Below the pieces are notes generated by a model that had not been told where the DNA came from, did no database searches, and saw only the letters and a list, made by a program, of their open reading frames with translations. A program made the translations under genes and the position numbers. Positions 40,935-64,000 of a stretch of 64,000 nt of DNA are shown piece by piece. Position 1 is the first letter of the stretch; each line of letters opens with the position of its first letter. The DNA comes from Sphingobium sp. 15-1 (GTDB taxonomy: Bacteria > Pseudomonadota > Alphaproteobacteria > Sphingomonadales > Sphingomonadaceae), in assembly GCF_013375535.1 (NCBI RefSeq), contig NZ_JABXJG010000001.1, positions 2,770,001-2,834,000 on the forward strand, in the 5' to 3' direction.

Positions 40935-41573
40935 GATGCCCCACTTTATTGCCCCTGTTAATCAGGGACTTAGAGGCATCTGAGCTGCTGTCAATCAATG
41001 GTAAGAGCGGGACGCTTTATTTTCCAATTTGACGGCAATTCCTTCTGGTATGACTTGTTGATGGATTGGACGAGGCTTCCCGGCTGGGTTCGCCGAGTGG
41101 GCTGCTGACAGGCTAAAGATCGGCTTTACAGCCTTTCCTTTGACGCTGCGTTGTACGGGTAGGCCTATCCTGTTACGCTGTCCCCGGCGCCGCGAATGGA
41201 CCGGACTTGAATGCCGGGAGGGGTGTGGCAGCGCTTGGGCGTGTCCGGCCAGTATCGGGCTTCTTGCATAGGAGGTTCCAACGCCCGCCCCTTCCTCGCG
41301 TCTGCCATCGGCAGCGTAAGGCACGCATGTCAAGTTGTGCTTGTCAGGCCTGTGCGAATAAGACAGTTTCTTCCTACCGCAGGGAGGCCTGCGGCAGGGG
41401 CGTGGAACCCCCTATGCAGAGAAAAGCGCTTCAGCGGGATAACCGTTGGAGCCTTTGTGGCTGTCATGGCCGCCTGGATCGTTGCGCCATTGCAGGCGCC
41501 ACGCCGACGCCCGCGCATGGGTGTTCCACTTTACGCATTATCGCGCCCCTTTGTTCGCAAGGAGGTCGGCGCG
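40935..41573. other. Intergenic region upstream of the FecI-type sigma factor
   Basis: Promoters of the divergent autotransporter and sigma genes must lie here. CCGCAGG (41378-41384) and CCTGCGG (41389-41395) form a hairpin with a 4-nt loop. The sigma frame stays open to 41211, but the upstream part has no sigma-family sequence. Confidence 0.5.
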
Positions 41574-42107
41574 ATGGCGAAACCCGTCATCAAGATTGGA
41601 AGCGGTCGGGACAAGGGGGCGGAGGAGGAAGATTCGCTCCGCGCCTGGCACGCGTCCCATTCTTCCTGGCTGCATGCCTTCCTGCGGCGTTCGCTCCATA
41701 TCCCGGCATCGGAAGCCGACGATATCGTGCAGGATACCTGGCTGCGGATCATCCGCACATCCCTTGCGGAGGTCGAGCACCCGCGTGCCTTCCTGTCCCG
41801 GATCGCGCTCAATCTCTTTCGCGACCGCCGCCGCCGCGATGTCGTGCGAAACGCGCATCACCATCTTGTTCTCGCGAGCGATCGGGATCGGGTCGACGCG
41901 CAGGCGCTGACGGAACAGGAAGCGCAAAGGGAATTGGAGCAGGCGATTCTGGATTTGCCCCAGAACATCCGTGATGTATTTGTGCTCAGCCGGTTCCGTC
42001 ACATGACGAACAGGGAGATCGCGGCGCATCTGGGCATTTCCATCAAGACGGTGGAGTGGCGAATAGGCAAGGCGATCCAATTGTGCGCAAACAGGTTGCG
42101 GAGCTAG
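41574..42107 (+). CDS. fecI: FecI-type ECF sigma factor
   Basis: 177 residues with sigma region 2 (DIVQDTWLRIIRTSLAEVEHPRAFL) and region 4 (VFVLSRFRHMTNREIAAHLGISIKTVEWRI), the FecI group pattern. ATG 41574 is chosen because AAGGAGG sits eight bases upstream and similarity begins just after it. It should be held and activated by the FecR protein encoded nine bases downstream and direct transcription of the receptor and lasso genes. Confidence 0.92.
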   Translation: MAKPVIKIGSGRDKGAEEEDSLRAWHASHSSWLHAFLRRSLHIPASEADDIVQDTWLRIIRTSLAEVEHPRAFLSRIALNLFRDRRRRDVVRNAHHHLVLASDRDRVDAQALTEQEAQRELEQAILDLPQNIRDVFVLSRFRHMTNREIAAHLGISIKTVEWRIGKAIQLCANRLRS

Positions 42108-42116
42108 ACGCGGCGG

Positions 42117-43103
42117 ATGGACGACGAGGATATCGCGACAGAAAGGCGGCGTGCAGAAGCGGCGCAGTGGTTCGCGCGCTTGAAAACCCTGCCGGTCTCC
42201 GAGAACACGTTGAAGGAATTCTTCGCGTGGCGCCGGTTCAAGCCGAATGCGGAGGCCTTCGAGGAGGCGGAACGCTTCTGGACGGAAGCGGGGAAAGCGG
42301 GTGATCGCCCCTCGATCCTGAGGGCTGTCGAGGAAGCCGCCGCTCGCAGCCGCAGCCGGCGGCGCTTTCGGCCCGCGATCCTGATTCCAGCGATAGCCGT
42401 TCTTGCCGCGGCGGTAACGGCCGGCATCCACTATATGTCCCTGGCGGGTTCCACTTTCCAGACCGAACCCGGTGCCCAGCGAACGGTCGCGCTGGAGGAT
42501 GGCTCGCGCCTTCGCCTCAATACCGACACGAGCTTGCGTGTGCGCTATGGTGCAGGCCAGCGGAAACTCGTTCTCGAAAGGGGCGAAGCCCTGTTCAACG
42601 TGGCGCACGACGCCGCACGCCCCTTTGTCGTGGCGGCGGGGGAGGTGAGGGTGACGGCGATCGGCACCCAGTTTGACGTGGCTCGCTGGGACGACCGGAT
42701 TTCCGTCACCCTCGTCGAGGGCCGTGTCAGCATTGTCGCCCCGGACGGAAACGCATTTCAGCTAAAGCCCGGCGAGCAATGGCGCTGGCCCCCGCAGAGC
42801 CGGCAAGTCCAGACGGTCAGCGCCGCCAATGTCGTCGCCTGGACACAGGGCCGGATCGTTTTCGACAACAGGACGCTGGACGACGCGATCGCCGAGGTCA
42901 ATCGCTATGGCGGCAAGCCGATCATATTGGACGCTCCGGCAATGGCTAGGAAACGCATCAGCGGTACATTCGAGGCGGGCGACAAGCAGAGCTTCGTCAA
43001 GGCGGTGACCGCTTTCCTGCCGTTGCGCGAAAGTGCGGCTGGCGGCCAGGACATCCGTCTCGTTGTCGACGAAGGGCGACAAGAAAAAATTTCGCTGCCT
43101 TAG
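42117..43103 (+). CDS. fecR: FecR-type anti-sigma/signal transducer
   Basis: 328 residues. The N-terminal cytoplasmic DUF4880 helix bundle (residues 10-60) holds WFARLKTLPVSENTLKEFFAW and should bind the sigma factor; one membrane segment lies at about 86-107. The periplasmic FecR domain has RTVALEDGSRLRLNTDT and VVAAGEVRVTAIGTQFDV, and a C-terminal secretin/TonB short-like DUF4974 region holds FDNRTLDDAIAEVNRYG. It would carry the signal from the receptor's N-terminal domain to FecI. Confidence 0.92.
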   Translation: MDDEDIATERRRAEAAQWFARLKTLPVSENTLKEFFAWRRFKPNAEAFEEAERFWTEAGKAGDRPSILRAVEEAAARSRSRRRFRPAILIPAIAVLAAAVTAGIHYMSLAGSTFQTEPGAQRTVALEDGSRLRLNTDTSLRVRYGAGQRKLVLERGEALFNVAHDAARPFVVAAGEVRVTAIGTQFDVARWDDRISVTLVEGRVSIVAPDGNAFQLKPGEQWRWPPQSRQVQTVSAANVVAWTQGRIVFDNRTLDDAIAEVNRYGGKPIILDAPAMARKRISGTFEAGDKQSFVKAVTAFLPLRESAAGGQDIRLVVDEGRQEKISLP

Positions 43104-43204
43104 GGTAGGCCGCCAGTTGCCGCGTCTCATTCCCGAACGCGCTTGAATGCCGATACCGAAAAGCTTGTCGGATCAGCATTTTAAGCCAAAAAAGGGGAAT
43201 GACG

Positions 43205-46200
43205 ATGGCGATGGGGGCTCTACGAAATATCCTTCGGCACATGGCGACATCTGCCGCGATGCTTGTTCTGGCGGGATCAGGCACGACTGGAGAAGCGCTG
43301 GCGCAGATCACAATGCCGCAGGACTTCGCGTTGGACATCCCCGCCGGCTCGTTGCAGTCGGCCCTGACAATCTTTGGCCGCCAGACCGGATTGCAACTCA
43401 TCTATGCCCCGGAGGCCGTTTCCGGGCGGCAGGTCGAGCGCCTGCGCGGGCGGTTCACGCCCCGTGACGCTCTGCAGAGGTTGATCTCCGGAACTGGCCT
43501 TCGCATTCGCGCGGTCGGTGCGAAAGTGATCGTGCTCGAAGGGCCTTCCTCCTCCCATGTGGGGGGAGAGGCGCGGCCGTCCAATGTCGTTCCCGGAACG
43601 GCCGAGGCGCGGCGGCCATCGCCGGCATCGGACGGCGCGGATGGGGCAGGCCGCCCGGCCAGCTTGCCCGAAATCATCGTGACCGGCTCCAACATCCGCG
43701 GACAGGCGCCGGTAGGCTCGAGCGTCAGGACGATCAGCCGCGCGCAGATGGAGGAAAATGGCTATCGCTCGGTCGCCCAGGCGCTCCAGGCGCTGCCCGG
43801 CAATTTCGGCGGGGTCGCCAATGAACAGGCTTCGCTTTCCTTCGTCGACCGCACCGGCACCAACGCCACCCTCTCGAGCGGCGTCAATCTGCGCGGGCTG
43901 GGCGCGGCTGCCACCCTCGTGCTCGTCAATGGGCGGCGTCTGGCGGGGGCCGGTAATCTCGGGGACTTTGCCGATGTGTCCAACATACCGATGAGCGTGG
44001 TCGACCGCATCGAGGTGCTGATGGACGGCGCCTCGGCCATCTACGGATCGGACGCCGTGGGAGGGGTGGTCAACATCATCATGAAGGACCGGTTCGAGGG
44101 TCTCGAAAGCGGAGCGCGCTTCGGGACGGTGACAAAGGGCGGCATGCACGAATTCCAGGCCTATCAGACCGTGGGGACCGAGTGGGGCACCGGCGGCGCG
44201 CTCCTCTCCTACGAATATTATGACCGCCGGCCGCTGATGGCGCGGGACCGGCGCTTTTCCCGCACTGCCGACTCCCGCCCGTTGGGTGGCACGGACCACC
44301 GCAATATCTACAGCCTGCCCGGGAACATCCTAGGCTTCGATCCCGTGACAGGCGGGCTGGGCGCGCTCTATGCGATACCGGGGGGCCAGAACGGAACGGC
44401 GCTTGGGCCCGAGGATTTCCTCGCCGGAGAGGCCAATGCCGGGGATCCGCTCGCAGGCGCTCAGCTCATCCCTGCTCAGACCCGACACAGCATCTATGCG
44501 GCAGCGAACCAGGATCTGGGCGGCGGCATCCACCTGTCGCTCGAGGGCCGCTTCACCCGGCGCGATTTCGAAGCGCTGGGCGGCGGCTACATCACCATCC
44601 TCACCGTGACCCCGAACAATCCCTGGTTTGTCTCGCCGACCGGGCAATCGGCCGATCTTATCGGCTATGATTTCGGGACGGAGATCGGTGCGAGCCGCGA
44701 CGGCGGCTGGTCTCAGTCCCTCGGCCTGACGGGCGCTCTCGACATCGATCTTGGCGGCGACTGGAAACTGGCGACCTATGCCGCCTATGCGCGCTCGAAG
44801 GAACGGCATCTGACCGACCAGATCGCGAACGAGGCGCTGCTCGCCGAGGCCCTGGGCACGATCGGTGACGATCCCGCGACGGCCTATAGCCCGTCGCGCG
44901 ATGGCTATTTCAACCCTTATGGCGATGGGTCGGCCAATTCGCCAGCCGTCCTGGCGGCGGTCGGAAGCGGCTTCCTCGATGCGCGCAACGTCATGCATGT
45001 CGCGACCGGCAATCTGCAGGCGGATGGTACCCTCACCGATCTTCCCGCCGGCCCGCTGGGGATTGCCCTGGGCGCCAATGTCCGGCGCGAGCTTTTCCGG
45101 AGCGACTATACTTCCTTCTACGCCACCGGCACGCCTTCGGTAGATGACCCCATCCGCCATGCCCGGACCATCTTCGCCGCCTTTGCCGAGGCGCGCATCC
45201 CGATATTTGGCGAGCAAAATGCGCGGCCGGGTTTGCGCCGTCTCGACCTGTCGATCGCCGGACGCATCGAGCGCTATCCCGATTTCGGAACGACGGCCAA
45301 TCCCAAATTCGGCTTGAACTGGTCGCCTTTGAAGGGACTGGCGATCCGGGGAACCTATGGCACGTCGTTCCGGGCGCCGAACCTCGCGCAACTGCGCGAC
45401 CGGGTGAGCACCGTCTTCACGAATCTGGTGAACGCGCGCGGCGCGGCCGTTCCCATCCTCTTTCTGGGCGGCGGGAACCCCGATCTCGAGCCGGAACGCG
45501 CACGAAGCTGGACGGTCGGCGCGGACCTCGAGCCGTCGGCCGTGCCGGGGCTGCGCATCAACGGCACGCTGTTCCGGACCATTTTCGATCGACGGATCGA
45601 CCGGCCAGCGGCGCGCGACCTGCGCAATGCGCTGATCAATCCCGATCTCGCGCCGTTCGTGCGCCATGTTTCGCCCACCACGAACACGGCCGACCGCGAT
45701 TATGTCCTTGCGCTGGTCGAGCGGTTCGGCGGCGCCGGAACGACCTTCCCGGTGGACCGTATCGCGGCTGTCGTCGACGCGCGCTATGTCAACACCGCCT
45801 CGACCGATGTGCGGGGGCTGGACATGGCGATCGGCTATACGGCGCGCCACGGGCGGAACAGTTTCTCGATCGACGCCAATGCGAGCTATCTTCTCGCCTG
45901 GCGCCAGCGGACCACGCCGACATCTGTCCGCATCGACCAGCGCAATCTTTCCGGACAACCCGTTGATTTCCGGGGTCGATTGAGCGCATCCTGGCGCCGC
46001 GACGCTTTCGACGCGCTTGTCGGCGTGAATTATGTCGATCATTATCGCAGCGCGGTCACCGGCATCCCCATCCATAGCTGGACCACGGTTGACGCGCGCC
46101 TCGCCTGGACGGCGCCCAGCGACAGTTCGGTAAAGGGGCTGACCGTCGCACTGGCGGCGCAGAATCTCTTCGACCGGGACCCGCCCTTCTATGATTCCTC

Positions 46201-46279
46201 CTCGGGTGTCGGCTATGACGCGGCGAATAGCGACGCGACCGGCCGGTTCGTCTCCCTCCAGATCACCAAGCGCTGGTAA
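43205..46279 (+). CDS. TonB-dependent receptor with signalling (STN) domain, probable lasso peptide receptor
   Basis: About 1024 residues. A signal peptide is followed by an STN domain (DIPAGSLQSALTIFGRQTG, AVSGRQVERLRGRFTPRDAL), which contacts FecR. The plug begins at PEIIVTGSNIRG and includes LVLVNGRRL, VDRIEVLMDGASAIYGSDA and GGVVNIIM. A large beta-barrel ends in Lys-Arg-Trp. ATG 43205 has AAGGGG at the right distance; ATG 43199 is too close. Its place before a lasso isopeptidase and after fecI/fecR suggests that the mature lasso peptide is its ligand, as in other proteobacterial isopeptidase clusters. Confidence 0.88.
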   Translation: MAMGALRNILRHMATSAAMLVLAGSGTTGEALAQITMPQDFALDIPAGSLQSALTIFGRQTGLQLIYAPEAVSGRQVERLRGRFTPRDALQRLISGTGLRIRAVGAKVIVLEGPSSSHVGGEARPSNVVPGTAEARRPSPASDGADGAGRPASLPEIIVTGSNIRGQAPVGSSVRTISRAQMEENGYRSVAQALQALPGNFGGVANEQASLSFVDRTGTNATLSSGVNLRGLGAAATLVLVNGRRLAGAGNLGDFADVSNIPMSVVDRIEVLMDGASAIYGSDAVGGVVNIIMKDRFEGLESGARFGTVTKGGMHEFQAYQTVGTEWGTGGALLSYEYYDRRPLMARDRRFSRTADSRPLGGTDHRNIYSLPGNILGFDPVTGGLGALYAIPGGQNGTALGPEDFLAGEANAGDPLAGAQLIPAQTRHSIYAAANQDLGGGIHLSLEGRFTRRDFEALGGGYITILTVTPNNPWFVSPTGQSADLIGYDFGTEIGASRDGGWSQSLGLTGALDIDLGGDWKLATYAAYARSKERHLTDQIANEALLAEALGTIGDDPATAYSPSRDGYFNPYGDGSANSPAVLAAVGSGFLDARNVMHVATGNLQADGTLTDLPAGPLGIALGANVRRELFRSDYTSFYATGTPSVDDPIRHARTIFAAFAEARIPIFGEQNARPGLRRLDLSIAGRIERYPDFGTTANPKFGLNWSPLKGLAIRGTYGTSFRAPNLAQLRDRVSTVFTNLVNARGAAVPILFLGGGNPDLEPERARSWTVGADLEPSAVPGLRINGTLFRTIFDRRIDRPAARDLRNALINPDLAPFVRHVSPTTNTADRDYVLALVERFGGAGTTFPVDRIAAVVDARYVNTASTDVRGLDMAIGYTARHGRNSFSIDANASYLLAWRQRTTPTSVRIDQRNLSGQPVDFRGRLSASWRRDAFDALVGVNYVDHYRSAVTGIPIHSWTTVDARLAWTAPSDSSVKGLTVALAAQNLFDRDPPFYDSSSGVGYDAANSDATGRFVSLQITKRW

Positions 46280-46284
46280 TCGCG

Positions 46285-48687
46285 ATGAGCCGTTGGCGGA
46301 CTTTTTGGGCCGCTGCCCTGCTCATCCTGAGCGGGGCGGCCTGGGCCAGGACCTATACGGTCGACGATCTCTTGCGGACCGAGGATTTCGGCGCGCTGGT
46401 CTTCGACCCTCAGGACCGCTGGCTGGTCTTCGAGCGGCGGGAATCCTTCCTCGACATGGGTCGGTTCGATATGCTGGCACGTGCCGTCGTCCTGCGGTCG
46501 CGGCTTTACCGCGTCGATCTGCGGGTGCCATTTCGAGCCACGCCGCTGCTGCCGGATGCGCAGCCCGGCACGATCCTCTACGGCTTCTCCTCAGGCGGCA
46601 CGCATCTCGCCATTGGCCGCCTCATGGGCGACCGCTGGCAGCTCGGTGTCGTGACGATGGCCACAGGAGCGGTGCGCTGGTTCGATCTTTCGCCCGACTA
46701 TAACCCCTTTCACGTCACACTGCGCTGGATATCGGACGAACGGCTGGCGGTGATCGCCGATCCAGCCGGCCAGCGCCCCTGGTGGCTGCGCATCGACAGT
46801 CTGCCCGCCGACCGCCTTCCGGCGCGCTGGGCGGCGACACGATCGGGGGCCTCCGCGGCCGTCACCACGGTCGGCAGCGGGCGCTTCAGGGGGGCAGGGG
46901 ACAGGCTGCCCGACAATCGGCTGGTGTTGGTGGAGGCATCGACCGGCGCCACGACCGTTCTGGCGACGGGACATTTCCTCGCCATGGCGGTCGCGCCCGA
47001 TCGGGACCATCTCGCCCTGATCGAACAGGGGGAAGCGACGCCCTTGCCGCAGGATCGTGCCGTGAGTCTGATCGACATGCCGTTCCGCCGGATACTGTCC
47101 CTCTACGATCTCCGCGCCCGGGCCGCTTGGCATCCCTGCCCGGATTGCGACGTCCAGGGCATGATCCAATGGTCGGTGGACGGCAGCGGCCTTGCCTTTG
47201 TGGCGCGGCGCGGCGGCGAGGACTGGGCGGCGGCGAGCGCTTTTGAACTGAACATCGCCCCGCGTTCGCTTGCCAGGCTTGAGGGGCATGGTGTCGTTCC
47301 CGCCATCGCGGAATTCCCCGACGGTTCGGTCAGGATGCCCTTCGCCTGGCGCGGCAAGGATATCCTGCTCTTGGGCCAGTCTGCTTCCGGACCGAACCGG
47401 CGGACGGACTGGTACAGGCTGCGGGTCCGGGGCGCGCCACAGCCGCTTACAGCGAACCTCTCCCACGTCGGTACTGATCTCTCCCGGATCGGTCGGTGCG
47501 CGGCGGCGATGAGAACGGCCGATGGCCCATGGTGCCTTGACGGCACGAAGCCGCAGCGGATGCAGCAACCCGGCACGGGACTCATCGGCAACATCGCCCA
47601 TATGCGCGACGTCGCGGGCGCCAGTGGCAGGTCTGACCGGACGGAGCGGGTCGAGATTTCCCCGAGCGGCAAAGCGAAGGCGGTCCAGATCCTTGCTTCC
47701 GACGGAACGAAAACCCTGCTTGTGATATCCGCGAGCGGGACCGCGATCGTCGATCGCGTCAATCTCCATTTGCGTGATGTCCAGCCCGCCGATCCCCGGC
47801 GGCTCACCTACCGGCTGCCTGGCGGCGGCCTTGCGACGGGATGGCTCTATCTTCCGCCGGGTGCTCCTGCCGGGCGCAGTCATCCGCTCGTCGTCATTCC
47901 CTATCCGGGGCAGAGCTATGGCAAGGAGCCGCCCGACGGGCAGGGACCGGCCAGCGCGCGCTTTCACGCCAATGCGCAGATATTGGCGGGCGGCGGTTAT
48001 GCGGTGCTGCTTCCAAGCCTGCCGTCGGGCGCCGCCGCTTCGGACAAGGGGTCGGGATTTGTCGAGGAAGTGGACCTGGCCGTGGACGCGGCGATCAAGA
48101 CCGGAACCGTCGATCCGCGTCGCATCGCGCTTTGGGGGCACAGCTATGGTGGCTATGCGGCGGCGGCGATCGCTTCGCGTTCATGCCGCTATGCTTCCAT
48201 CATCGCCTCGGCGGGGGTCTATGATCTTGGCGCGGTTCCCGGCATTTTCGGGCCGACGCTTCGCCTGGCGCCCGAACTGGCCCTGCCTATCGGATCGCAA
48301 TTCGCCTGGGCCGAAACCGGTCAGGCCCGATTGGGCGTGCCGCCCTGGATCGATCCGGCCGCTTATGTGGCGGCCAGTCCCTTCTATCGTGCCGGCCATA
48401 TCGCCACGCCGATGTTGATCGTCGCGGCGGACCGCGATCCATCCCCGATGCAGCAGGCCGAACAGCTTTTCTCGGCCCTCTACCGCCAGAACAAGGATGC
48501 CCAGTTGCTGACCTATTGGGGCGAGGGGCATGTCATCGGCAGTCCCGCCAATGTGCGCGATCTCTACGCCCGGGTCTTCGCCTGGCTTGATGACACTATG
48601 AACCGGCCGCGAGCGGGGCCTTGCGCCCCGCGCGGATCGCCTCCACCCGGCCTTGCCAGACGCGCGCCCAATGCTCCATCAGGATGA
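46285..48687 (+). CDS. Lasso peptide isopeptidase (prolyl-oligopeptidase fold, AtxE type)
   Basis: 800 residues with a signal peptide (1-21, ending Ala-Trp-Ala), a seven-bladed propeller-like part (about 25-520) and an S9 hydrolase domain. The catalytic Ser is 620 in GHSYGGYA, the acid Asp716 or Asp718 in AADRDPSP, and His749 in WGEGHVIGS. It starts six bases after the TonB receptor and faces the lasso cyclase. In this context it most likely cleaves the isopeptide bond of the imported lasso peptide rather than being a general peptidase. The last ~30 residues, rich in Arg and Pro, overlap the cyclase gene antiparallel. Confidence 0.88.
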   Translation: MSRWRTFWAAALLILSGAAWARTYTVDDLLRTEDFGALVFDPQDRWLVFERRESFLDMGRFDMLARAVVLRSRLYRVDLRVPFRATPLLPDAQPGTILYGFSSGGTHLAIGRLMGDRWQLGVVTMATGAVRWFDLSPDYNPFHVTLRWISDERLAVIADPAGQRPWWLRIDSLPADRLPARWAATRSGASAAVTTVGSGRFRGAGDRLPDNRLVLVEASTGATTVLATGHFLAMAVAPDRDHLALIEQGEATPLPQDRAVSLIDMPFRRILSLYDLRARAAWHPCPDCDVQGMIQWSVDGSGLAFVARRGGEDWAAASAFELNIAPRSLARLEGHGVVPAIAEFPDGSVRMPFAWRGKDILLLGQSASGPNRRTDWYRLRVRGAPQPLTANLSHVGTDLSRIGRCAAAMRTADGPWCLDGTKPQRMQQPGTGLIGNIAHMRDVAGASGRSDRTERVEISPSGKAKAVQILASDGTKTLLVISASGTAIVDRVNLHLRDVQPADPRRLTYRLPGGGLATGWLYLPPGAPAGRSHPLVVIPYPGQSYGKEPPDGQGPASARFHANAQILAGGGYAVLLPSLPSGAAASDKGSGFVEEVDLAVDAAIKTGTVDPRRIALWGHSYGGYAAAAIASRSCRYASIIASAGVYDLGAVPGIFGPTLRLAPELALPIGSQFAWAETGQARLGVPPWIDPAAYVAASPFYRAGHIATPMLIVAADRDPSPMQQAEQLFSALYRQNKDAQLLTYWGEGHVIGSPANVRDLYARVFAWLDDTMNRPRAGPCAPRGSPPPGLARRAPNAPSG

Positions 48688-50377
48688 CCGAGCGCAGCTT
48701 CGCATAGCAGTCGAAGCGCATGAGGAAATCCTCGTCCAGCATCGGCTCGAGGCGCTTGCCGTCGAGGACGCCGTTTCGAACGAGCAAACCGTCGAGCAGA
48801 AACGCGCGCAGGAAGGGGACGCTCGCGCAAAGGCAACGGCCGAAATATTGGGCCAATACCCCCTTGCCCATGCGCTCGACGACGCTCGCCGGAAGCCGCC
48901 CGGCAAAGGCCTGGCGCGCCAGCGCGCGGTCTCTTCGGCCCAGGGTCAGCCGATAGGCATCCGCGGCGATCGTCCACTCCACCAGCGGTTGGGAGAGCAG
49001 GGGATGGATCACCGTCAGCGACCGGCTTCGCCATGACGGACCGATCACACTGCGGTCCGTCGCGATCGCCGTGATCTGCACCCGCTTGGCCGGCGGAAGA
49101 GAATTGAGCTCGCCTGCCCATTGCGATGCAGGCGCAGGGGTGTCGACATGGATCGGAAGGCCGGCGAGCGCCTCGTCGGCCAGCCCGGCGGTCCTGTGCG
49201 GGATCGGGAAGTGGAAAGCGTGACGGGCCACGGTCCAGACCGATTCCCTGCTCCATTTGGCCAATGCCGCATGGGCCTGGATGTCGAAGCGCGGAAAGCT
49301 TGGATCGCCCGCGATGAGAGGCGTCGGATGCTGGAAGAAGAGCGCATCGCCGCCGTGCCCCGTGAACAGCGCCGTGGCGCCACGATCCAGCGCGATCTTC
49401 GTCAGCGCCCGCTCGTGAAAGAGCGACGCGCTGCTAAGGCCTGGCCGCGCATCGACGGGAAGACCCTCCAGATCCTCTTGCCCAAGCCGTCCGACCGGCA
49501 TGAAGACCTCGTCCAGCTTTATGCCGGTCTGCGCGCTGATGTCGCGCGCGAACCGCCGTTCATCGCCCGAAAGCTGGCCGGTGAAGAAATTGATTCCCCA
49601 TCTTATGCCGGCGCCACCGTTCGTCCCTGCGGCCGCCACCACCGCCGAATCGAGGCCGCCCGAGATTTCCAGCATGGTCTGCGCATAGGTTCCGGTCCAT
49701 GCCTGAACGCAGCGCTGTACGGTTTCGCGCAATTGCGCCGCGTCGGCTTTTCCTGCCTGTTTCCGGTCATAGAAGATGGAAGGCTGCCAGAGCCGTCGCG
49801 CTGCCATCTTGCCGCGCCGGATGTCGAGAACCGATCCGGCGGGGATCGTCCCGACGCCCGTCAAGGCTGTCGCCTCTGCCAGCGTGGCCGAATCGACCAG
49901 CAATTGTGCGGTCCGTCGCCAATCGATGGCGAGCCCGGAGGGCGCGCAGATCTCCAGCCAGGGCATCACATTCGAAGCGGCGATGCTCAGGCCCTCCTCC
50001 TGCCAGATCAGGCCATCGAGCATGCCTATTGGATCGCGGAACAGTGACATCTCGCCATCGCGCCCCAGGCGCACCGCGAGATAGGCGCCCCAATGGTCGC
50101 GGATAAGGCGGTCGCACAGGTCCGGGAAAGCAGTGCCCACTTCCGACAGGCCACTGTTTCCGCTGTCCGGACGGCGCGCAAAGAGGTTCCCGATGATGAA
50201 GGTTGAAGCCTCCTCGGGACCGATCGTCTTTGCAAAGCTGTCGCCGCCGATCGCTATGAAGCGGCCGGGCCGGTCGATAAGCCGGCGCCAGTTGGAGCAG
50301 AGCGGCCGCAAATGGCGCACCAGCGCTTCCGCCCTTGCATCGCCTTCCTTCCAAGACAGGATCAGATAGGGTGTCAT
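48596..50377 (-). CDS. Lasso peptide macrolactam synthetase (C protein, asparagine synthetase-like)
   Basis: 593 residues from ATG 50377, which overlaps the stop of the B gene by three bases (ATGA). The N-terminal ~200 residues resemble the glutaminase half of asparagine synthetase B but start MTPYLIL, without Cys2, so the glutaminase is inactive as usual for lasso C proteins. The synthetase half has the PP-loop LEISGGLDSAVV (SGGLDS at 239-244), which adenylates the ring Asp/Glu of the core peptide. It closes the macrolactam after leader removal. Confidence 0.92.
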   Translation of the reverse strand: MTPYLILSWKEGDARAEALVRHLRPLCSNWRRLIDRPGRFIAIGGDSFAKTIGPEEASTFIIGNLFARRPDSGNSGLSEVGTAFPDLCDRLIRDHWGAYLAVRLGRDGEMSLFRDPIGMLDGLIWQEEGLSIAASNVMPWLEICAPSGLAIDWRRTAQLLVDSATLAEATALTGVGTIPAGSVLDIRRGKMAARRLWQPSIFYDRKQAGKADAAQLRETVQRCVQAWTGTYAQTMLEISGGLDSAVVAAAGTNGGAGIRWGINFFTGQLSGDERRFARDISAQTGIKLDEVFMPVGRLGQEDLEGLPVDARPGLSSASLFHERALTKIALDRGATALFTGHGGDALFFQHPTPLIAGDPSFPRFDIQAHAALAKWSRESVWTVARHAFHFPIPHRTAGLADEALAGLPIHVDTPAPASQWAGELNSLPPAKRVQITAIATDRSVIGPSWRSRSLTVIHPLLSQPLVEWTIAADAYRLTLGRRDRALARQAFAGRLPASVVERMGKGVLAQYFGRCLCASVPFLRAFLLDGLLVRNGVLDGKRLEPMLDEDFLMRFDCYAKLRSVILMEHWARVWQGRVEAIRAGRKAPLAAGS

Positions 50378-50976
50378 GGGCGCTGCGGCGAAACCGTCCA
50401 GATGATGGCATAATCCTCGATGCAGTGCCGCAGCTCGTTGAGCAGAAGGTCGCCCGACGCCACCCAGCAATGAGCGCGAAAGGGGAAGAGCTGTACACCG
50501 AAGATCCAGTCGGCGCGGAGGCCATGGGCATCGAGGAAATGAAGCAGGGCATAGGAGCCAAACAGGCATTTGGGTGTGAACGGCGTGAAGGAAAGCAGAT
50601 AGCGGAACAGGTTGGACGCCTGTTCGGGTGTGATCGGCTGTGGTCTGTCCCTTGCCTCGAACCGCTGCACGCGCGTCGCCAGTTCCGCCACCGATCGGCC
50701 GGGGAATCCGATGGCGGCCCTGATGAGGGCGGCAAGGAAACGCATGAGATGGGCGAGGGTCGGGCGCGGAAAATTTGAGGGTTGAAGGTCCGTCCAGCGG
50801 GACGTCAGCATCGGCCGCGTCGGGTCCGGGTCAGCGCCGCTGGCTAAAGCCATGCGCTGGGCATAAGCGGCGACTGGCTCTTCGGGATCGTAGCGGCAGG
50901 CATAATCATCATGCTCAAGGTCGAGGAAGACGATTCCATCGCCCGATCTTACGGCCAGACCCATATTTCTTTCCAA
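50374..50976 (-). CDS. Lasso peptide B protein (leader-binding domain fused to leader peptidase)
   Basis: 200 residues. Residues 1-45 resemble the PqqD-like leader-binding (B1) domain (GLAVRSGDGIVFLDLE). Residues 75-200 are the transglutaminase-like protease (B2): catalytic Cys137 in PKCLFGSYALLHF, His169 in PFRAHCWVASGD and Asp176. A TTG at 50976 is the probable start because a full AGGAGG sits eight bases upstream (50985-50990); ATG 50964 lies too far from it. It should bind the precursor's leader and cut it after the conserved Thr-containing site. Confidence 0.9.
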   Translation of the reverse strand: MERNMGLAVRSGDGIVFLDLEHDDYACRYDPEEPVAAYAQRMALASGADPDPTRPMLTSRWTDLQPSNFPRPTLAHLMRFLAALIRAAIGFPGRSVAELATRVQRFEARDRPQPITPEQASNLFRYLLSFTPFTPKCLFGSYALLHFLDAHGLRADWIFGVQLFPFRAHCWVASGDLLLNELRHCIEDYAIIWTVSPQRP

Positions 50977-50999
50977 GGATAGGACCTCCTGTCAGGAGC

Positions 51000-51031
51000 G
51001 GGGACGCGGCATCTATCGCTGTCGCGTCCCC
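51000..51031 (-). promoter_or_regulatory. Stem-loop between lasso precursor and B gene
   Basis: GGGGACGCG (51000-51008) and CGCGTCCCC (51023-51031) form a perfect 9-bp stem just after the precursor stop. No U run follows, so it is more likely a partial terminator or an mRNA 3'-end stabiliser. It would let precursor mRNA exceed mRNA for B and C. CTCC-TGACA-GGAG just beyond (minus strand) can also fold over the ribosome site of the B gene. Confidence 0.7.
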
Positions 51032-51042
51032 GTCTTTCGATA

Positions 51043-51186
51043 TCAGCCGCCGAAGCGCTGCGTTTTGTCGCCGACCAGTTCCGGGGCGATTTCATTCATC
51101 GATGCCCGCGTCTGGTGCCGCGCTTTGCCGAGTTTCACGAGGGACCGGCCGGGTCCACGGCCGGATTTGACATCCTGGATATGCAT
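51043..51186 (-). CDS. Lasso peptide precursor (A gene)
   Basis: 47 residues. The leader (1-27) ends with RSLVKLGKARHQTR, which fits the LxxLGxAxxxT motif of proteobacterial lasso leaders and places Thr at position -2. The predicted core is ASMNEIAPELVGDKTQRFGG: Ala1 would be joined to Glu9, giving a 9-residue ring with Pro8-Glu9, as in the caulonodin VI type as I recall it. AGGAG lies correctly before the ATG. It is the first gene of the leftward A-B-C set. No ABC exporter gene is present, as usual for isopeptidase clusters. The ring and cut site are inferred from motifs. Confidence 0.88.
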   Translation of the reverse strand: MHIQDVKSGRGPGRSLVKLGKARHQTRASMNEIAPELVGDKTQRFGG

Positions 51187-51260
51187 GACTGACTCCTGGT
51201 TTGAAGCGACGTCGTTCGTCGCAGGCTCATTAAGGCATGGCTGGGCCAGAAGACGAAGTC

Positions 51261-51279
51261 ATATTGTAGAATATATTGT
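51261..51279. promoter_or_regulatory. Direct repeat in the lasso precursor promoter region
   Basis: ATATTGT at 51261-51267 recurs at 51273-51279, 12 bp apart, in a short AT-rich window between the GntR stop and the precursor start. The place suits a promoter and regulator site. Confidence 0.35.
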
Positions 51280-51288
51280 TGAACTTCT

Positions 51289-51870
51289 TCATCGATCCGA
51301 AGAAATCGTCCAGATATCTCTTGATTCCTTCTGGCATGTCTCGTGATATTTGCTGATGATGCTGCGCGCTTTTCTGACTTCTCCTTTGTTCAGGGTGTCA
51401 GCGATATTCCACTTCAGACCCGTGACTGAGAAATGGATTTCCTCCGCCTTGCGAAACAGGGCGAGCCTTCCGGAGAGATAAAGCTGCATTCCTACAAGCG
51501 CGGCGTCCCCGCTCTGTTTCGCGATCGCGGCGAAAAGCTGCCATCGATTGCGCGGGCGATTCGGCAGAAGCCTGCCCTCCGCGCAGCGCTGGAGGGCAAG
51601 GTCGACGATGAGGCCGTGCGCGGCGTAAAGCTGGTGCAATGTCGCGCTGGTCATCGGCGCGATGAAAAACCCCCTGTTATGGCGTTCCACCAATATGTCC
51701 CGGCCTACCAGGTGGCAAAGCGCTTCGCGCACGGGAATGGCGCTGCTTCCCAGATCGCGGGCGATTACCCCTGGGATGATCCTCTCTCCGGGGCGATATC
51801 TGCCATTTTCGATTCGGCGCATGATCTTGCGCGCTATTTCGGGACCTGACGATCTTGTACCGTGCTTCAT
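51289..51870 (-). CDS. GntR-family transcriptional regulator
   Basis: 193 residues. The N-terminal winged helix-turn-helix (IARKIMRRIENGRYRPGERI, SSAIPVREALCHLVGRDIL) is typical of the GntR family, and the C-terminal ~120 helical residues resemble the FadR-type (FCD) ligand domain, although the metal ligands are not obvious. It lies just upstream of the precursor gene in the same direction. GntR genes recur in this type of lasso cluster, so it is a likely regulator of precursor transcription. Confidence 0.82.
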   Translation of the reverse strand: MKHGTRSSGPEIARKIMRRIENGRYRPGERIIPGVIARDLGSSAIPVREALCHLVGRDILVERHNRGFFIAPMTSATLHQLYAAHGLIVDLALQRCAEGRLLPNRPRNRWQLFAAIAKQSGDAALVGMQLYLSGRLALFRKAEEIHFSVTGLKWNIADTLNKGEVRKARSIISKYHETCQKESRDIWTISSDR

Positions 51871-52168
51871 TCCATCCCTCGAGAAGAACTTGACTGCTCA
51901 TGAGGCGAACGGCTTTGACGGCTTTTGTCGAGCCGGGGTCCGCTATTTCATGGGCGCGCAGTGGGCGGCTGGACCGATTTACGCGTTCGGCTCGCAAGGC
52001 CTTGCGGCCAATCCGCAATTTCCCTGCATGTTTTTACGAATGCGATTGCGGTGTCGGGCCGCGACGGGAGAGGAGATAGGTGGGTAGGGCCGATTCCCGT
52101 TTCGAATCGGAATTCAATTTGTCATAAATCTGCCATGGAGAGGCCGTTCGCTCGCAAAGGGTGCAAGA
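51871..52168. other. Divergent promoter region between GntR and Xre-type genes
   Basis: No gene recognised. The region must contain promoters for both flanking regulators. Confidence 0.4.
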
Positions 52169-52675
52169 ATGCTGCTTTCGTCCATCGACTGTCCAGGCGG
52201 CCGCGATGTCCTCGCCCAGGTAACGCGCGGCATCAGGCGCAAACGAGATCTTAAAACAAGCCAAGTGGCCGAGCGTATGGGCCTGCCGCTGCGGACCTAT
52301 GAACTGTTCGAGGCGGGCGGCGGGCGTCTCAGCCTCGACCGGATCAGGAAATTTGCCGAGGCGACGGACAGCGACCCCTTCGCGATCATCCTGTCGGTTG
52401 CCTTCGAGGATGCCGGGTTCGCCATCGCCTGTGCCGATACCAAGATGGCGCTTATTCTCGCCATGCATCTGCAGGGCTTTTACGAGGATCGGGGAGCGGA
52501 CATTGCCTTCCTCGAGCCGCCCAACATCATCGGCGCGTTCGAGCGCATCTTCAAGGAACTGGGGGCGAAACTCGACGATAATGAAGCCTTTTTGCGCCGC
52601 TGGTTCGACGGCCGGACTGGGTCTATCAGCCTGGGTTCGCTTTCGGTGCGCGGGGTCCGCCGGCGCAAGGCCTGA
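52169..52675 (+). CDS. Xre-type helix-turn-helix protein
   Basis: 168 residues. Residues 12-75 form an Xre/Cro helix-turn-helix (ITRGIRRKRDLKTSQVAERMGLP-like, LPLRTYELFEAGGGRLSLDRI). The remaining ~90 residues are a helical domain of unknown function with a basic end. It lies divergent from the GntR gene at the border of the lasso locus. Its target may be either the lasso locus or the mobile-element backbone to its right. Confidence 0.72.
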   Translation: MLLSSIDCPGGRDVLAQVTRGIRRKRDLKTSQVAERMGLPLRTYELFEAGGGRLSLDRIRKFAEATDSDPFAIILSVAFEDAGFAIACADTKMALILAMHLQGFYEDRGADIAFLEPPNIIGAFERIFKELGAKLDDNEAFLRRWFDGRTGSISLGSLSVRGVRRRKA

Positions 52676-52682
52676 TGCGCGT

Positions 52683-53469
52683 TCAGCCGACCAGATCGAG
52701 ATAGCCCCCCGCGGCCAATTGCCTGGCTTTGGTCATTAATCGCCTTGTGGCCATGCGGAGATAGTCGGAAGCATGGGCCCAGTCGGCATCGACTTTCTGT
52801 GTGCCGTATAGTTCGCTTGCCACGGCGCGCACCCGCCTATGATCCGCCAGCGCATTGAGCGTTCGCAGGATCAGGTCGCTCCGGACCGCGTTGCGCGGCT
52901 TGCCCAGGAGTGCATGCGGAACTCGTCCGAGCCGCAGCAGCGCGTCGAACTGGCGCAAGGCGAGCAGGCGGCGCTGGAGCAATCTTCGTCCGCCCATGCG
53001 AAAATCGAGCATGACGGGACCAGCGAGCAATGTTCCCGCTTCGATGCAGAGCCTGATCGTCAGTCGACCGCAACGGATAGCGAGTTCTTCTCCGGCGGCA
53101 TCCTTGAGGATCGATGCCGGCATTTTCAGCCTCCCGATATCGAAGGCGTCGGGATGTCCACTCGGGCAGGGCCGCGCCGCGGCGCGGATTGTCATCGGAT
53201 CGCGGTCGGCGTGCCAGAACAGGCGGGCATTGTCCGCCGGCCGTTCAGGGTCTTCGGCGAAAACGCAGCCCCCATCGGTCGGGCATGTCTGCCGGACGGA
53301 CCAGTTCAATCAGAGCTGACTGGCCGATCCGTTCCACCGTCGCGGGAGTCGCGCGATAGTCGGCCCGTCGGCGCACGATCTCCCAGGCAAAGGCGCGCGG
53401 GTCGCAAAGAGCGCCCGAGTCGGGATGGGATCGCCGGATCAACGCAGGATATGGCGGCATCACTTGCAT
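52683..53469 (-). pseudogene. DUF6499/DUF2285 regulator gene broken by one extra base
   Basis: The N-terminal frame (from ATG 53469) has the DUF6499 motif AFAWEIVRRRADYRA and runs to WGLRF, then stops. The next frame continues at once with AEDPERPADNARLFW and the DUF2285 domain to 52683. Removing one base from the A4 run at 53260-53263 joins them as WGLRFAEDPERPADNARLFW, the normal order for this ~260-residue protein family of alphaproteobacterial integrative elements. It is either a real frameshift mutation or a sequencing error in a homopolymer. Confidence 0.75.
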
Positions 53470-54270
53470 CAACATCGTCCCTTTCATGTGGAAGGAATGA
53501 TGTTCAGCGATGATGTGGACGATCCCGCACAAGACGGCCGATCATCATGCGTCAGGACGCATTTTTATCCTTGATTCGCAATGCCTTTGCGGCATTCCGC
53601 AAGATGCTCCGCCGGGTAACTCAATATTGTGGGATATATTCGCGGATTCGCGGGAGCACGATAGAAGGGCCATGTCGGGGATAAGGGGGCGGGCGTTGGA
53701 ACTTCCTGCAGAGGGAGCCCGCTGCTTTGCGACATGCCCGTGCGCCGATTGCCCCCGGCTGTCGGCATCCCGCTATCTCGCGGCACCCGCATGGGCTGAC
53801 TAACCCCGCCCGTTGTTCCTGACAAGGTGCGCGAGAGTGACGAGAGGGCATTGGCGATCGCGCCAGAGAGCCTTTCGCTTCGTGAGCGGCTTGGCTTTCT
53901 CGCACCGGACGCATCCTTCTGACCCGTTCTGCCGTGCCACTGCCGGCACAGCATGGCCTGAAGGCGGGACACGCGTCCCGCTCGACAGACGCTTCACCGG
54001 GGCGCATGCGCCCGGGCCAGTTGCCCGGCGCGCCTTCGTCGCGCCGGCGTCGTTGGTGGGCAACCCCTTGGGCGCGGAGGGTGGTCGGCGCGCCCTGATA
54101 GGCCCGCGGCGCCGGCCGGCAAGCCTCGCTGCGCTTCGGCTGCTCCACTTCGTTCCGCCCCCTTGGGTGCCGCCCCGCGCCCTTGCGGGCCTGTCCGGTC
54201 GCTCCTGCCGCCCACCCCCCACGCCCGGCGGGTTTGCGGTCGGTTTTTGGGCAGCATCAGGAGGCCAGCC
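53470..54270. promoter_or_regulatory. GC-rich gene-free region with ArdC leader copy A
   Basis: 800 bp without a convincing gene. The last 190 bp, from GGTCGGCGCGCC (54083-54094) to the ardC ribosome site, are related to a block at 61690-61868 before another ArdC-type start (shared TAGGCCCGC and TTTTGGGCAG segments). Conservation upstream of antirestriction genes suggests a structured promoter or a transfer-linked signal. Confidence 0.5.
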
Positions 54271-55065
54271 ATGGCCATTTCCGGCACGCGCCGCGCGCGG
54301 GGGGAGGGACGCAACAAGGCGGCGCGCTCCCGCCTCAATCTCTATGACGAGGTGACTACCAAGATCATCGCGCAACTCGACGCGGGCCGCTTTCCTTGGG
54401 TGCAACCGTGGGACAGCAGCGCCTGCGCCGGTCCCGGCCTGCCGAGGAACGCGCTCACCGCCCGACGATATTCCGGTATCAATGTGCTGCTTTTATGGAG
54501 CGCGGCCATCGCGGGCGGCTATCCCACGCAATGCTGGCTGACCTTCCGGCAGGCGCTCGAGGCAGGCGGCAACGTCCGCAAGGGCGAACAGGGCGTGGCC
54601 GTTGTCTATGCCGACCGCTTCACTCCCGAAACCGAGCGGGAACGCGCGCGCGAAACGGGCGAGCATGCCAAGGCCGTTCCCTTCCTCAAGCGCTTCACGC
54701 TCTTCAATATCGCGCAATGCGAAGGGCTGCGCGAGGGACTCGCAGGTGATCCCGCGCCGCCGCCCGAACGCGAGATCGTCCCGCGCGCCGAGGCCCTTAT
54801 CGCCGCGAGCGGGGCGGACTTCCGCATCGGCGGGGACAAGGCCTATTATTCGCCCTCCGGCGACTATGTGCAGGTGCCGCCGCAAACCGCGTTCCGCGAC
54901 CAGATCAACTTTTATCGCACCGCCTTTCATGAGCTTTCCCATCATGCCGGCGCAGCCCACCGGCTGAACCGCGATCTTTCCGGTCCGTTCGGCTCGAAAT
55001 CCTACGCACGCGAAGAACTGGTGGCGTTATCTGGACAGTCTGCGCCGGATGCAACCGTGCGGTAA
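54271..55065 (+). pseudogene. ardC: 5' part of ardC (antirestriction ssDNA-binding protein), split by the RIT element
   Basis: The ArdC-family N-terminal domain (RSRLNLYDEVTTKIIAQL, ARRYSGINVLLLW, RKGEQGVAVVY) is followed by the metallopeptidase-like part with the zinc motif HELSHHAGAAHRL. GGAGG precedes ATG 54271. The family sequence continues to REELVA at 55026, then 13 foreign codons lead to a stop at 55065. The missing C-terminus (AEISAAFLCAALGIVPT) is found at 61917-62120. Rejoined, the gene would code for 317 residues. ArdC protects incoming single-stranded DNA from restriction. Confidence 0.9.
55028..55040 (+). repeat. Left terminal inverted repeat of the RIT element
   Basis: TATCTGGACAGTC, two bases inside the interrupted ardC sequence. 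A shorter copy, GTTATCTGG, recurs at about 55095. Confidence 0.8.
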
Positions 55066-55166
55066 AATCCGCAATGTACATCGACGGCGGGCAGTTATCT
55101 GGCTGGCCGTAGCGCTGACCCAAGAGCTGGCGGAGGCCAGCCTGATGACTGCCGAGTCAACCACGC

Positions 55167-56567
55167 ATGGGCCGGTCCACCTTCCGGGAGGGGGGGCAGG
55201 GGGAGGGTTTCACGTCGGTGTCTGTCATCGTCGTTTCCGAGGGGCGGGAGATCTCTGGCCTCGATGCGCATGTGCCGCGGATCCTTCGAGATGGCGCGCT
55301 CTATGACGCTGACCTCGACCGCTTCTTTCTCGACCTACCGTTGTCGGGTGTCCGTTCGCGCCATTCGCTGCGCGCCTACGCCTATGATGTTGCGGTCTGG
55401 CTCCGCTTTCTCGATGCCTGCGGCAAGACGATGTGGACCGCGGAGCGCGATGACGTGACCGCCTATCATCGTGCGCGTCGACGCGACGAAGCCGCCCAGC
55501 GGATCAGCGCTGCAAGCTGGAACAGGGCGGTCGCGAGCCTCGATCGTCTCTACCGTTGGGGTGAGCAACAGGGACTGATCGCCGAGGCGCCGTTCAGTCG
55601 GCGTGCTGTATGGCGCCCGGCGCATGGCGGCGGTCGCGGCATGATCGCGGCGCGCAACGATGCCTATGAACGTGTCGCCAGGCGATCGGATGTGCGGTTC
55701 GTCACGATGGACGACTACCGCATTTTCCGCGAGGTCGGCCTGCGCGGGCTCACCCCTGACGGCACCGAACGCCCCGGCGCTCGCGACCGTAACGGGCTGC
55801 GCAACGCACTGTTCGCCGATCTTCTCGTCACCACCGGCCTGCGCCTCGAAGAGGCGTCGGGCTTGCTCACCGCCGAGCTCGCGGCGATCGACCGCGCGGA
55901 CGGCGATGCCCGACAACTTTGGCTGCCTCTCCCGCCGCCGCTCACCAAGGGCGACCGGGGACGTAGCGTTCTGCTCCCGCGTCGGCTGCTTCGCCAGATC
56001 GCCGCCTATGTCGCCGTCGAGCGAGCAGCGGGCGTGGCCAAGTTCGCCGCGCGCGATGGGGCGGCCAGCTTCGAGCGACCGATCCCTGTCCCCCGCGCCG
56101 GTCTCGACCGTATGCGCGATGTCTGCACCCCGGAGGAACGATGCCGCCTGATCCTGTGCGACGAGGATGCAACGCCCCGCGAGCCGGCGGCGCTATGGCT
56201 GACCGAGGTCGGGCAGCCTGTCCGCCCCAACTCGTGGGAGGTGATCTTCACCCGTGCCTGCAACCGGTGCGAGGAGAACGGCTTCCCGCTGTCGATCAGC
56301 CCGCACCAGCTTCGCCACACCTTCGCAGTCCATATGCTCGCCTTGCTGATCCAGCAGCGGCTGCGCGAAGCAGCATTGCCGGCGGGACCGGTGGAGAGCT
56401 ATCGGCTGATCCTCGGCGACCCGCTGCAACAGGTGCAACGCCTGCTCGGCCACGCCAGCCTCGCCACCACCTATATCTACCTCGACCATATCGCGACCCG
56501 CGCCGATACGGTGGACGCAGCCGTTGAGGAACTGCTGGCGTTGCTGCCGGGGCCGCAAAGCGTATGA
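55167..56567 (+). CDS. RIT tyrosine recombinase 1
   Basis: 466 residues with an N-terminal SAM-like core-binding domain (SRHSLRAYAYDVAVWLRFLD) and a catalytic domain with Arg in TTGLRLEEA, His/Arg in SPHQLRHTFAVHML, His in LLGHASLATT and Tyr in YIYLDH. All catalytic residues are visible. Its stop overlaps the next start (ATGA), as usual in RIT trios. The true start may be downstream of 55167, since the first ~20 residues are low complexity. Confidence 0.9.
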   Translation: MGRSTFREGGQGEGFTSVSVIVVSEGREISGLDAHVPRILRDGALYDADLDRFFLDLPLSGVRSRHSLRAYAYDVAVWLRFLDACGKTMWTAERDDVTAYHRARRRDEAAQRISAASWNRAVASLDRLYRWGEQQGLIAEAPFSRRAVWRPAHGGGRGMIAARNDAYERVARRSDVRFVTMDDYRIFREVGLRGLTPDGTERPGARDRNGLRNALFADLLVTTGLRLEEASGLLTAELAAIDRADGDARQLWLPLPPPLTKGDRGRSVLLPRRLLRQIAAYVAVERAAGVAKFAARDGAASFERPIPVPRAGLDRMRDVCTPEERCRLILCDEDATPREPAALWLTEVGQPVRPNSWEVIFTRACNRCEENGFPLSISPHQLRHTFAVHMLALLIQQRLREAALPAGPVESYRLILGDPLQQVQRLLGHASLATTYIYLDHIATRADTVDAAVEELLALLPGPQSV

Positions 56568-62646: not shown

Positions 62647-64000
62647 ATGGAACTGGCAAATATCGAAATTGGCAAGCTGTTCGTCAGCCGGACCAACATG
62701 CGCCATGCCGACAAGGCCCCCGACGTGTCCGACATTCTCCCCACCGTCAAGGCGCGCGGCGTCATCGTGCCGCTGATCGTCCGCCCCGGCGAGGCTGAGG
62801 GGGCGCCCGGTATGTTCGGCATCGTCGCGGGCGCGCGGCGCTTCCGTGCCGCCATCCTTGCCGCGCAGGAAACCGGCGAGGCCGAACCGCTGCCCTGCGC
62901 GATCATGGGGCCGGGCGACGATGCCGCCGCGCTCGAAGCCTCGCTCATCGAGAATATCGGCAGGTTGGACCCGGATGAGGTGACGCAATGGGAGACCTTC
63001 ACCCGCCTCATCCAGAAGGAAGGGCGCAGCGTCGAGCAGATCGGCCAGACCTTCGGCCTTACCGACCTCTATGTGCGGCGCATCCTTGCCTTGGGCAATC
63101 TCCTGCCGCGCATCCGCGCCCTCTATCGCGATGGCGAGATCAACGTGGCGAGCGTGCGCCATCTCACCCTTGCGACCAAGGCGCAGCAAAAGGCTTGGCT
63201 CGCCCTGTTCGACAGTGAAGAATATTGCCCCACCGGCCAGCAACTCAAATCATGGCTGTTCAGCGGCGCGGCCATTTCCACCAGCCACGCGATCTTTCCG
63301 CTCGAAAGCTACAAGGGGAAGATCGTCGCGGACCTGTTCGGGGAGGATGGCGTCTTTGCCGACGCTGCTTCTTTCTGGCGCGCGCAGAATGAGGCCATCG
63401 CCGCCAAACGCGACGAACTTCTTGCCGCTGGCTGGGCCGATGTGGAGATTATGGAGCCGGGACGCTATTTCCATAGTTGGGAATATGAAAGGACGCCCAA
63501 GACCAAGGGCGGCAAGGTGTTCATCACCGTCACCCATCAGGGCGAAGTCGAACTGCATGAGGGCTGGCTGTCCGGCAAGGAAGCAAGGCAAGCGCGCGCG
63601 CAGGAGGCCAAGGCGAGCGGCACGCAGGCCGACAAACAGGCCGCGCAGGCGTTGCGCAGCGAGACGACGAGCAGTTTGCAGACCTATGTCGACCTCCACC
63701 GTCATGCCGCCGCCCGGGCCGTGCTGACCGATCATCCCGGCGTCGCGCTGCGTCTGTTGGTTGCCCATGCCATTGTCGGGTCTCCGCTCTGGACCGTGCG
63801 GGTCGAGACGCAGGCCTGCCGTAATGAGGCGATTGCCGAGAGCGTCGAAACCGGCATGGCCGAAACCCGGTTCGACGAAAAGCGCCGCGCGGTTCTGGCG
63901 CTGCTCGACTTCTCGCCGGAAGAGCCGACCGTCGCTGGCGGCCATGGCAAGGATGAGGGCATCGCCGCGATCTTCGCCCGGCTGATCGGCCTTGGCGACG
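62647..64000 (+). CDS. ParB/RepB/Spo0J-like protein, cut by the window edge
   Basis: The frame is open from ATG 62647 to the end of the window (451 codons) and has no stop. The N-terminal ParB box is seen (LFVSRTNMRHADKAPDV, VIVPLIVRPGE, GIVAGARRFRAAIL, EASLIENIGRLDPDEVTQWETF), followed by the helix-turn-helix EQIGQTFGLTDLYVRRILALGNLLPRI. The long C-terminal region is typical of the ParB-like proteins of alphaproteobacterial integrative elements and plasmids, where the role is thought to be regulation or partition. GGAG lies before the start. Confidence 0.9.
   Translation, partial: MELANIEIGKLFVSRTNMRHADKAPDVSDILPTVKARGVIVPLIVRPGEAEGAPGMFGIVAGARRFRAAILAAQETGEAEPLPCAIMGPGDDAAALEASLIENIGRLDPDEVTQWETFTRLIQKEGRSVEQIGQTFGLTDLYVRRILALGNLLPRIRALYRDGEINVASVRHLTLATKAQQKAWLALFDSEEYCPTGQQLKSWLFSGAAISTSHAIFPLESYKGKIVADLFGEDGVFADAASFWRAQNEAIAAKRDELLAAGWADVEIMEPGRYFHSWEYERTPKTKGGKVFITVTHQGEVELHEGWLSGKEARQARAQEAKASGTQADKQAAQALRSETTSSLQTYVDLHRHAAARAVLTDHPGVALRLLVAHAIVGSPLWTVRVETQACRNEAIAESVETGMAETRFDEKRRAVLALLDFSPEEPTVAGGHGKDEGIAAIFARLIGLGD

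Follow-up and report, generated by a model that had tools for sequence, protein, structure and literature searches.

Lasso peptides are matured in two steps, leader cleavage by the B protein and ring closure by the C protein, and in caulonodin VI the ring joins Ala1 to Glu9. The first residues seen experimentally in lasso peptides include Gly, Cys, Ser and Ala (PMC12670498), and PMC11006600 places the ring acceptors at position 7, 8 or 9. Caulonodin VI has been produced in E. coli (PMC7549694), and its core is given as AGTGVLLPETNQIKRYDPA in the table of PMC12427821. For lasso peptides of the isopeptidase type, PMC9266682 calls the cluster architecture almost constant and terms the role of the peptides enigmatic. 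The integrative conjugative element ICEMlSymR7A is described in PMC10359603, where FseA activates excision of the element after a +1 ribosomal frameshift.

We analysed a stretch of 64 kb (the window), which holds a complete isopeptidase-type lasso gene set around the core ASMNEIAPELVGDKTQRFGG: FecI, FecR, a TonB-dependent receptor and an S9 peptidase on the plus strand, and C, B, A and GntR on the minus strand (Table 1). The set resembles the clusters of the astexins, sphingopyxin I and benenodin-1 as described in PMC9266682, and that of sphingocin in PMC11006600, in having GntR before A-B-C, an isopeptidase, a TonB receptor and a sigma/anti-sigma pair. It differs from these in its Ala1 core and in its divergent S9 enzyme, which lies below the family cut-off. 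A conserved HTH gene with an adjoining FseA is also present here, whereas the cluster descriptions in PMC9266682 do not mention an HTH gene.

The core is similar to caulonodins IV–VII as tabulated in PMC12427821, which start with Ala1 (VI) or Ser1, carry Glu at position 9 and, in VI and VII, share Pro8-Glu9. The loop and tail differ, reading LVGDKTQRFGG in ASMNEIAPELVGDKTQRFGG and TNQIKRYDPA in caulonodin VI. We found an identical caulonodin VI core at the locus L068, beside related B, C, isopeptidase-like, TonB, HTH and GntR genes. The C protein of that locus is ∼30 percent identical to the one in the window, and L068 has two precursors vs. the one found here.

A new lasso core alone is commonplace in genome mining; the linkage to conjugation genes, which the original prediction did not cover, is the more unusual feature. 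We are highly confident that the gene encodes a class II lasso precursor of an isopeptidase-type cluster, carried as cargo on a Trb-type integrative conjugative element (ICE) beside an fseA-type gene.

The lasso gene cluster and its relatives

Table 1. Positions of the lasso, regulatory and transfer-related features in the window.
Feature	Position	Strand	Matches and remarks
FecI-type ECF sigma factor	41211..42107	+	PF08281, PF04542, matching from residue 149
FecR-type anti-sigma regulator	42117..43103	+	PF04773
TonB-dependent receptor with STN signalling domain	43199..46279	+	PF00593, PF07715, PF07660
S9 peptidase, putative lasso isopeptidase	46285..48687	+	PF00326
C, asparagine-synthetase-like lasso cyclase	48596..50377	-	PF00733 6.9e-17
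B, B2-type leader peptidase	50374..50976	-	NF033537 58.1 bits (cut-off 33), PF13471 48.6 bits (cut-off 26)
Lasso precursor gene A	51043..51186	-	47 aa (47 codons + stop)
Core ASMNEIAPELVGDKTQRFGG	51046..51105	-	predicted ring Ala1-Glu9; leader Thr at -2
GntR-family regulator	51289..51870	-	PF00392; homologue in 73/80 loci
Xre/HTH_3-type regulator	52169..52675	+	divergent from GntR; PF01381 22.5 bits, just under cut-off 23
FseA C-terminal half, DUF2285	52683..53309	-	+1 frame; PF10074 46.2 bits; TGGGG...TTTCG site
FseA N-terminal half, DUF6499	53245..53532	-	PF20109 37.7 bits; motif AWEIVRRR
ArdC-type antirestriction gene	54163..55065	+	PF08401; PF18818 at positions 2-82 of 126 only; 3′ part displaced by recombinase trio
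ParB-like gene	62647..64000	+	PF02195; runs off window

The B gene starts at a TTG codon preceded by AGGAGG, and its product scores above the cut-off of the lasso B2 leader peptidase model NF033537; its N-terminal part is probably the leader-binding RRE. The start of C overlaps the stop of B (ATGA). C combines an Asn synthetase domain with an SGGLDS loop that is invariant across five sequences, and its profile matches the beta-lactam synthetase 1jgt at 4.9e-10. As it reached 31.9 bits against the NCBIfam lasso cyclase model NF033535, for which the cut-off is 525, we name it a lasso cyclase by context and domain only.

The S9 enzyme has the S9 fold with a Ser-Asp-His triad, which was assigned by motif and conservation: across 26 sequences there is no variation at Ser620 or His749 and hardly any at Asp718. 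Its predicted model (mean pLDDT 85.5) gave other S9 peptidases as the best structural matches, with SpI-IsoP and AtxE2 at ranks 41–50. The S9 profile A2 matched AtxE2 (5txc) at 1.7e-10, and a single-sequence search with the enzyme at 0.001 did not find AtxE2. Since the score against NF033523 (lasso_peptidase) was 66.9 bits, below the cut-off of 400, we go no further than calling the enzyme isopeptidase-like, on the grounds of its position and a distant homology. The true start of FecI is probably downstream of the annotated one. Directly before FecI, at 35538–40934 on the minus strand, we recognised by eye a 1798-aa autotransporter-like protein.

In the pathway that we propose, B would bind the leader and cut after Arg27, and C would activate Glu9 and join it to the amine of Ala1 while the tail threads, giving a ring of nine residues. 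The TonB receptor, FecI/FecR and the S9 enzyme would probably re-import, sense and linearise the peptide, and the GntR and HTH proteins probably control expression.

Matches to B were found in 56 of 298 family genomes, at 77 loci, and the nearest relatives (41–44 percent identity) are in the genomes G217, G287 (two loci) and G294. Scanning named genomes with a profile of C, we obtained 73 loci that carry a related C; they belong to Sphingobium, Sphingomonas, Brevundimonas, Phenylobacterium and Caulobacter, among others. The nearest clade comprises 12 loci (the window, L034–L037, L040–L045 and L047); we first chose it from the matches to C and B, when the DUF2285 pattern described below had already been seen, and then checked it with trees. 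The 12 loci form one group with a support of 1.0 both in the C tree (79 tips) and in the B tree (77 tips), which include the loci whose C or B domain was of sufficient length. A genus search of 94 genomes gave no further near-clade locus, and viral contigs, scanned with a close-relative pattern, yielded no confirmed relative of B. In a plasmid collection B had matches in six records, all with less than 60 percent identity.

The HTH gene has a homologue in 63 of the 80 loci. When we searched the 298 genomes with an HTH profile, scoring at most 12 first-look candidates per genome, 15 of the matches listed were strong (at least 186 bits, the next having 46.5), and 14 of these 15 lay 1–2 kb from a lasso B. 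The HTH gene accompanies at least 14 of the 77 B loci. It appears from these matches to be nearly confined to such lasso clusters and to mark one kind of cluster only. There is one exception to the stricter rule that lasso genes always accompany the HTH gene: in the genome G257 the HTH gene was found together with FseA on a contig with no lasso gene. That 11.9-kb contig (L137; G257:C41) carries the HTH gene paired with a single-frame FseA and is perhaps the remnant of a lost cluster.

The fseA-type gene and its linkage to conjugation genes

Two overlapping frames on the minus strand, DUF6499 and then DUF2285, with a +1 frameshift site, run convergently to the HTH gene. The overlapping frames, the +1 frameshift, the WGL/TGGGGG context and an AWEFLRRN-like motif are all found in FseA of ICEMlSymR7A (PMC10359603). 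The gene in the window adjoins a lasso cluster, whereas the word lasso is absent from PMC10359603. Among 24 lasso-adjacent FseA loci examined, the halves are in +1 frames in 20 and in one frame in four (L130, L131, L133, L135), and 15 of the 24, the window included, have the TGGGG...TTTCG..G site.

HTH, DUF2285 and DUF6499 occur together beside the lasso GntR gene in all 12 nearest-clade loci. DUF2285 was seen in two of the 68 remaining loci (L055 and L095), a count made on flanks of ∼7 kb or less, which would overlook any FseA located on the other side of the cluster. With a deeper profile search, DUF6499 was found in 14 of the 80 loci.

To quantify the linkage we turned to the 56 lasso-positive Sphingomonadaceae genomes. 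Of the 77 B loci, 35 have a DUF2285 locus no farther than 15 kb away, where random placement predicts 0.94; these 35 loci span 31 genomes and 22 genera but are partly non-independent, as several share one arrangement, and shared descent inflates the linkage numbers. DUF6499 is carried by 48 of the 56 lasso-positive genomes vs. 55 of the 242 others (Fisher p 1.5e-18). A TraG match of at least 200 bits occurs no more than 60 kb from 21 of the 35 FseA-adjacent loci, against an expectation of 2.31, and from six of the 42 B loci without an adjacent FseA, against 2.04. For the other 14 FseA-adjacent loci no such TraG lies on the contig within this distance; some contigs end before 60 kb.

Besides the ArdC-type and ParB-like genes of Table 1, an S26 peptidase, a relaxase/DUF3363, TraG, TrbE, TrbL and further trb-like genes follow downstream of the window; TrbF, TrbG, TrbI and TrbJ were named by eye. 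The genes expected of a Trb-type ICE, namely relaxase, coupling protein, T4SS genes and integrase, are all present. Integrases with an Arm-DNA-bind_3 domain flank the region (3511–4896 of the window and L115:1287-2636). No attachment repeats were found close to either integrase or to the left of FecI, nor was a tRNA found, so the ends of the element were not located.

Three large consecutive frames at 55167–60510 resemble a recombinase trio, presumably RIT-like, and interrupt ArdC near 55.06 kb; the Pfam integrase match is in the first frame only. A second ArdC follows the trio at ∼60.6–61.5 kb. Downstream of the transfer genes, in L113–L116 joined, a six-frame set is repeated in the same order (50897–59120 and 61582–72603), with extra frames inside the second copy. 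The genome has a second FseA homologue (G000:C1:2926036-2926791), which is encoded in a single frame; it lies ∼6 kb from a second TraG, which suggests another conjugative element nearby.

The FseA-type gene might instead be tied to the lasso genes themselves. Its constant place beside them in the nearest clade fits such a tie, as do G217 and both G287 loci, where FseA is present and the relaxase, TraG, trb, ArdC and ParB genes of the window had no match in the 40 kb beyond it. At L034 one weak integrase match was found in the 40 kb beyond FseA, and G217 has a TraG ∼21 kb away on the opposite side. We nevertheless consider the tie unlikely. Besides the proximity of TraG to 21 of the FseA-adjacent loci, 48 of the 83 DUF2285 loci in the lasso-positive genomes (merged from 106 matches) have no lasso B within 15 kb, the remaining 35 being those near a lasso B. 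FseA lies on either flank of the lasso cluster and at several distances, which points to several separate lasso–FseA associations.

Co-divergence of FseA with the lasso genes gave r 0.80–0.91 over 11 loci (L043, a near-copy of L041, was dropped), but these values leaned on close relatives. With eight divergent loci (the test being run without L043, L044, L045, L047 and IsoP), r was 0.18 for C, 0.22 for GntR, 0.22 for HTH and 0.58 for B. As only B stays significant, we do not claim deep co-evolution. Searching for an inverted repeat shared by the lasso and fseA promoters, we found the repeats in 51000–54200 to be few and unconvincing, and promoter-like matches were at chance level. No DUF2285 gene occurs on the contigs of the two additional lasso loci in the same genome.

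Most likely, the lasso cluster is cargo of a conjugative element, in which it would sit beside the fseA-type activator gene of a Trb-type ICE. That these clusters recur next to a conjugation activator in 22 genera suggests that isopeptidase-type lasso peptides are often maintained within mobile elements. The linkage matters more than the new peptide, being a fresh clue to the purpose of this type of lasso peptide, and it makes testable whether the peptide affects transfer of its own element or gives an advantage to carriers. We found no publication in the open literature searched that pairs a lasso peptide with DUF2285, DUF6499 or RovC. Judged by title and the start of the abstract, none of the papers listed for lasso peptides with integrative and conjugative elements, or with conjugation in sphingomonads, treats this linkage.

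ICEBs1 is restrained by a peptide. By analogy, the lasso peptide could be an element-encoded signal that tunes conjugation: it would be secreted, TonB/FecR/FecI would report its level outside, the S9 enzyme would destroy it after uptake, and GntR, HTH and FseA would translate the level into excision and transfer. We regard this bolder alternative to the cargo reading as speculative and improbable. If true, it would provide a Gram-negative counterpart of the ICEBs1 peptide and explain both the usual lack of antibiotic activity in isopeptidase-type lasso peptides and their travelling with fseA.

The precursor and its predicted ring

The original prediction, which was made from the DNA letters, proposed a 47-codon minus-strand frame between B and GntR as the precursor gene, and its coordinates, strand, length and sequence proved exact. 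The leader of 27 aa carries LVKLGKARHQT, an instance of the predicted motif LxxLGxAxxxT, which in its strict form occurs only here in the six frames of the window. The core starts where it had been placed and contains Pro8-Glu9. With Thr at -2 of the leader and a gene adjoining B and C, the precursor has the features of class II lasso precursors, and the core has those of class II lasso peptides: a small Ala1, an acidic Glu9 (within 7–9) and no Cys. We computed 2101.0262 Da for the lasso form of ASMNEIAPELVGDKTQRFGG (2+ 1051.5204; 3+ 701.3494), in good agreement with the earlier hand calculation of 2101.03 Da and m/z 1051.52 (2+), and 2119.0368 Da for the linear form.

The core had been noted as unfamiliar, and this holds for the literature and the plasmid collection searched. 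The open literature gave no hit for ASMNEIAPELVGDKTQRFGG, whereas the caulonodin VI core, used as a control, was found. The main text of PMC12427821 does not contain the core, despite its lasso peptide table, and a search of the plasmid collection at E up to 1 gave no match to precursor A. ASMNEIAPELVGDKTQRFGG is a new sequence within the known lasso peptide family.

It is very improbable that the frame is a chance ORF or a dead precursor, in a cluster that no longer makes a lasso peptide. The frame is short and precursor A has no match in Pfam or NCBIfam, but the sole strict motif match of the window falls at the expected position. Upstream of the ATG is a ribosome-binding-like (Shine-Dalgarno-like) AGGAG, Thr-2 and Glu9 are in place, the frame has counterparts in relatives, and B, C, the S9 enzyme, the receptor and the regulators are all open reading frames.

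A pattern search yielded 83 precursor candidates from 57 of the 73 C loci. Asp or Glu is at core position 9 in 78 of them (17 of these also have it at 8 and 11 also at 7) and only at 8 in the other five; as the pattern itself demanded Asp or Glu at 7–9, only the preference for position 9 is informative, and many of the 83 cores are near-copies. The first residue is Ala in 57 candidates, Gly in 17, Ser in seven, Asp in one and Arg in one. In the nearest clade, for which the precursors of L040 and L041 were missed by the pattern and read by eye, all 12 cores have Glu9, six of them starting with Ala1 and the other six with Gly1. Closest-looking among them are ASFSGGQPEMILDREYTVGG from L041 (Sphingobium lactosutens) and ASFSGIRAELVSNRQYTLGA from L040 (Sphingobium sp.).

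With Glu9 conserved in this way and caulonodin VI as a precedent, the predicted Ala1-Glu9 ring, with Glu9 as the likely acceptor, is well supported; it is well founded and not unprecedented. Closure of the ring elsewhere, or a leader cut at another site, is very improbable: the core also holds a Glu5 and tail processing is unpredictable from sequence, but Glu5 would give a ring of five residues, which counts against it given acceptors at 7, 8 or 9 (PMC11006600), and position 9 is the acceptor common to the clade. Threading, production and tail trimming of ASMNEIAPELVGDKTQRFGG are likewise predicted.

The same genome holds two further lasso clusters. One, at ∼322.8 kb of G000:C3 (L038), has two precursors with the predicted cores AIVQTGEQEEFIPVLSYA and AITQMGDSEEFMPVLCWP, and the other, at ∼701.7 kb of G000:C2 (L039), has the predicted core GIEGKARDVDQSPLTGMGILDE.
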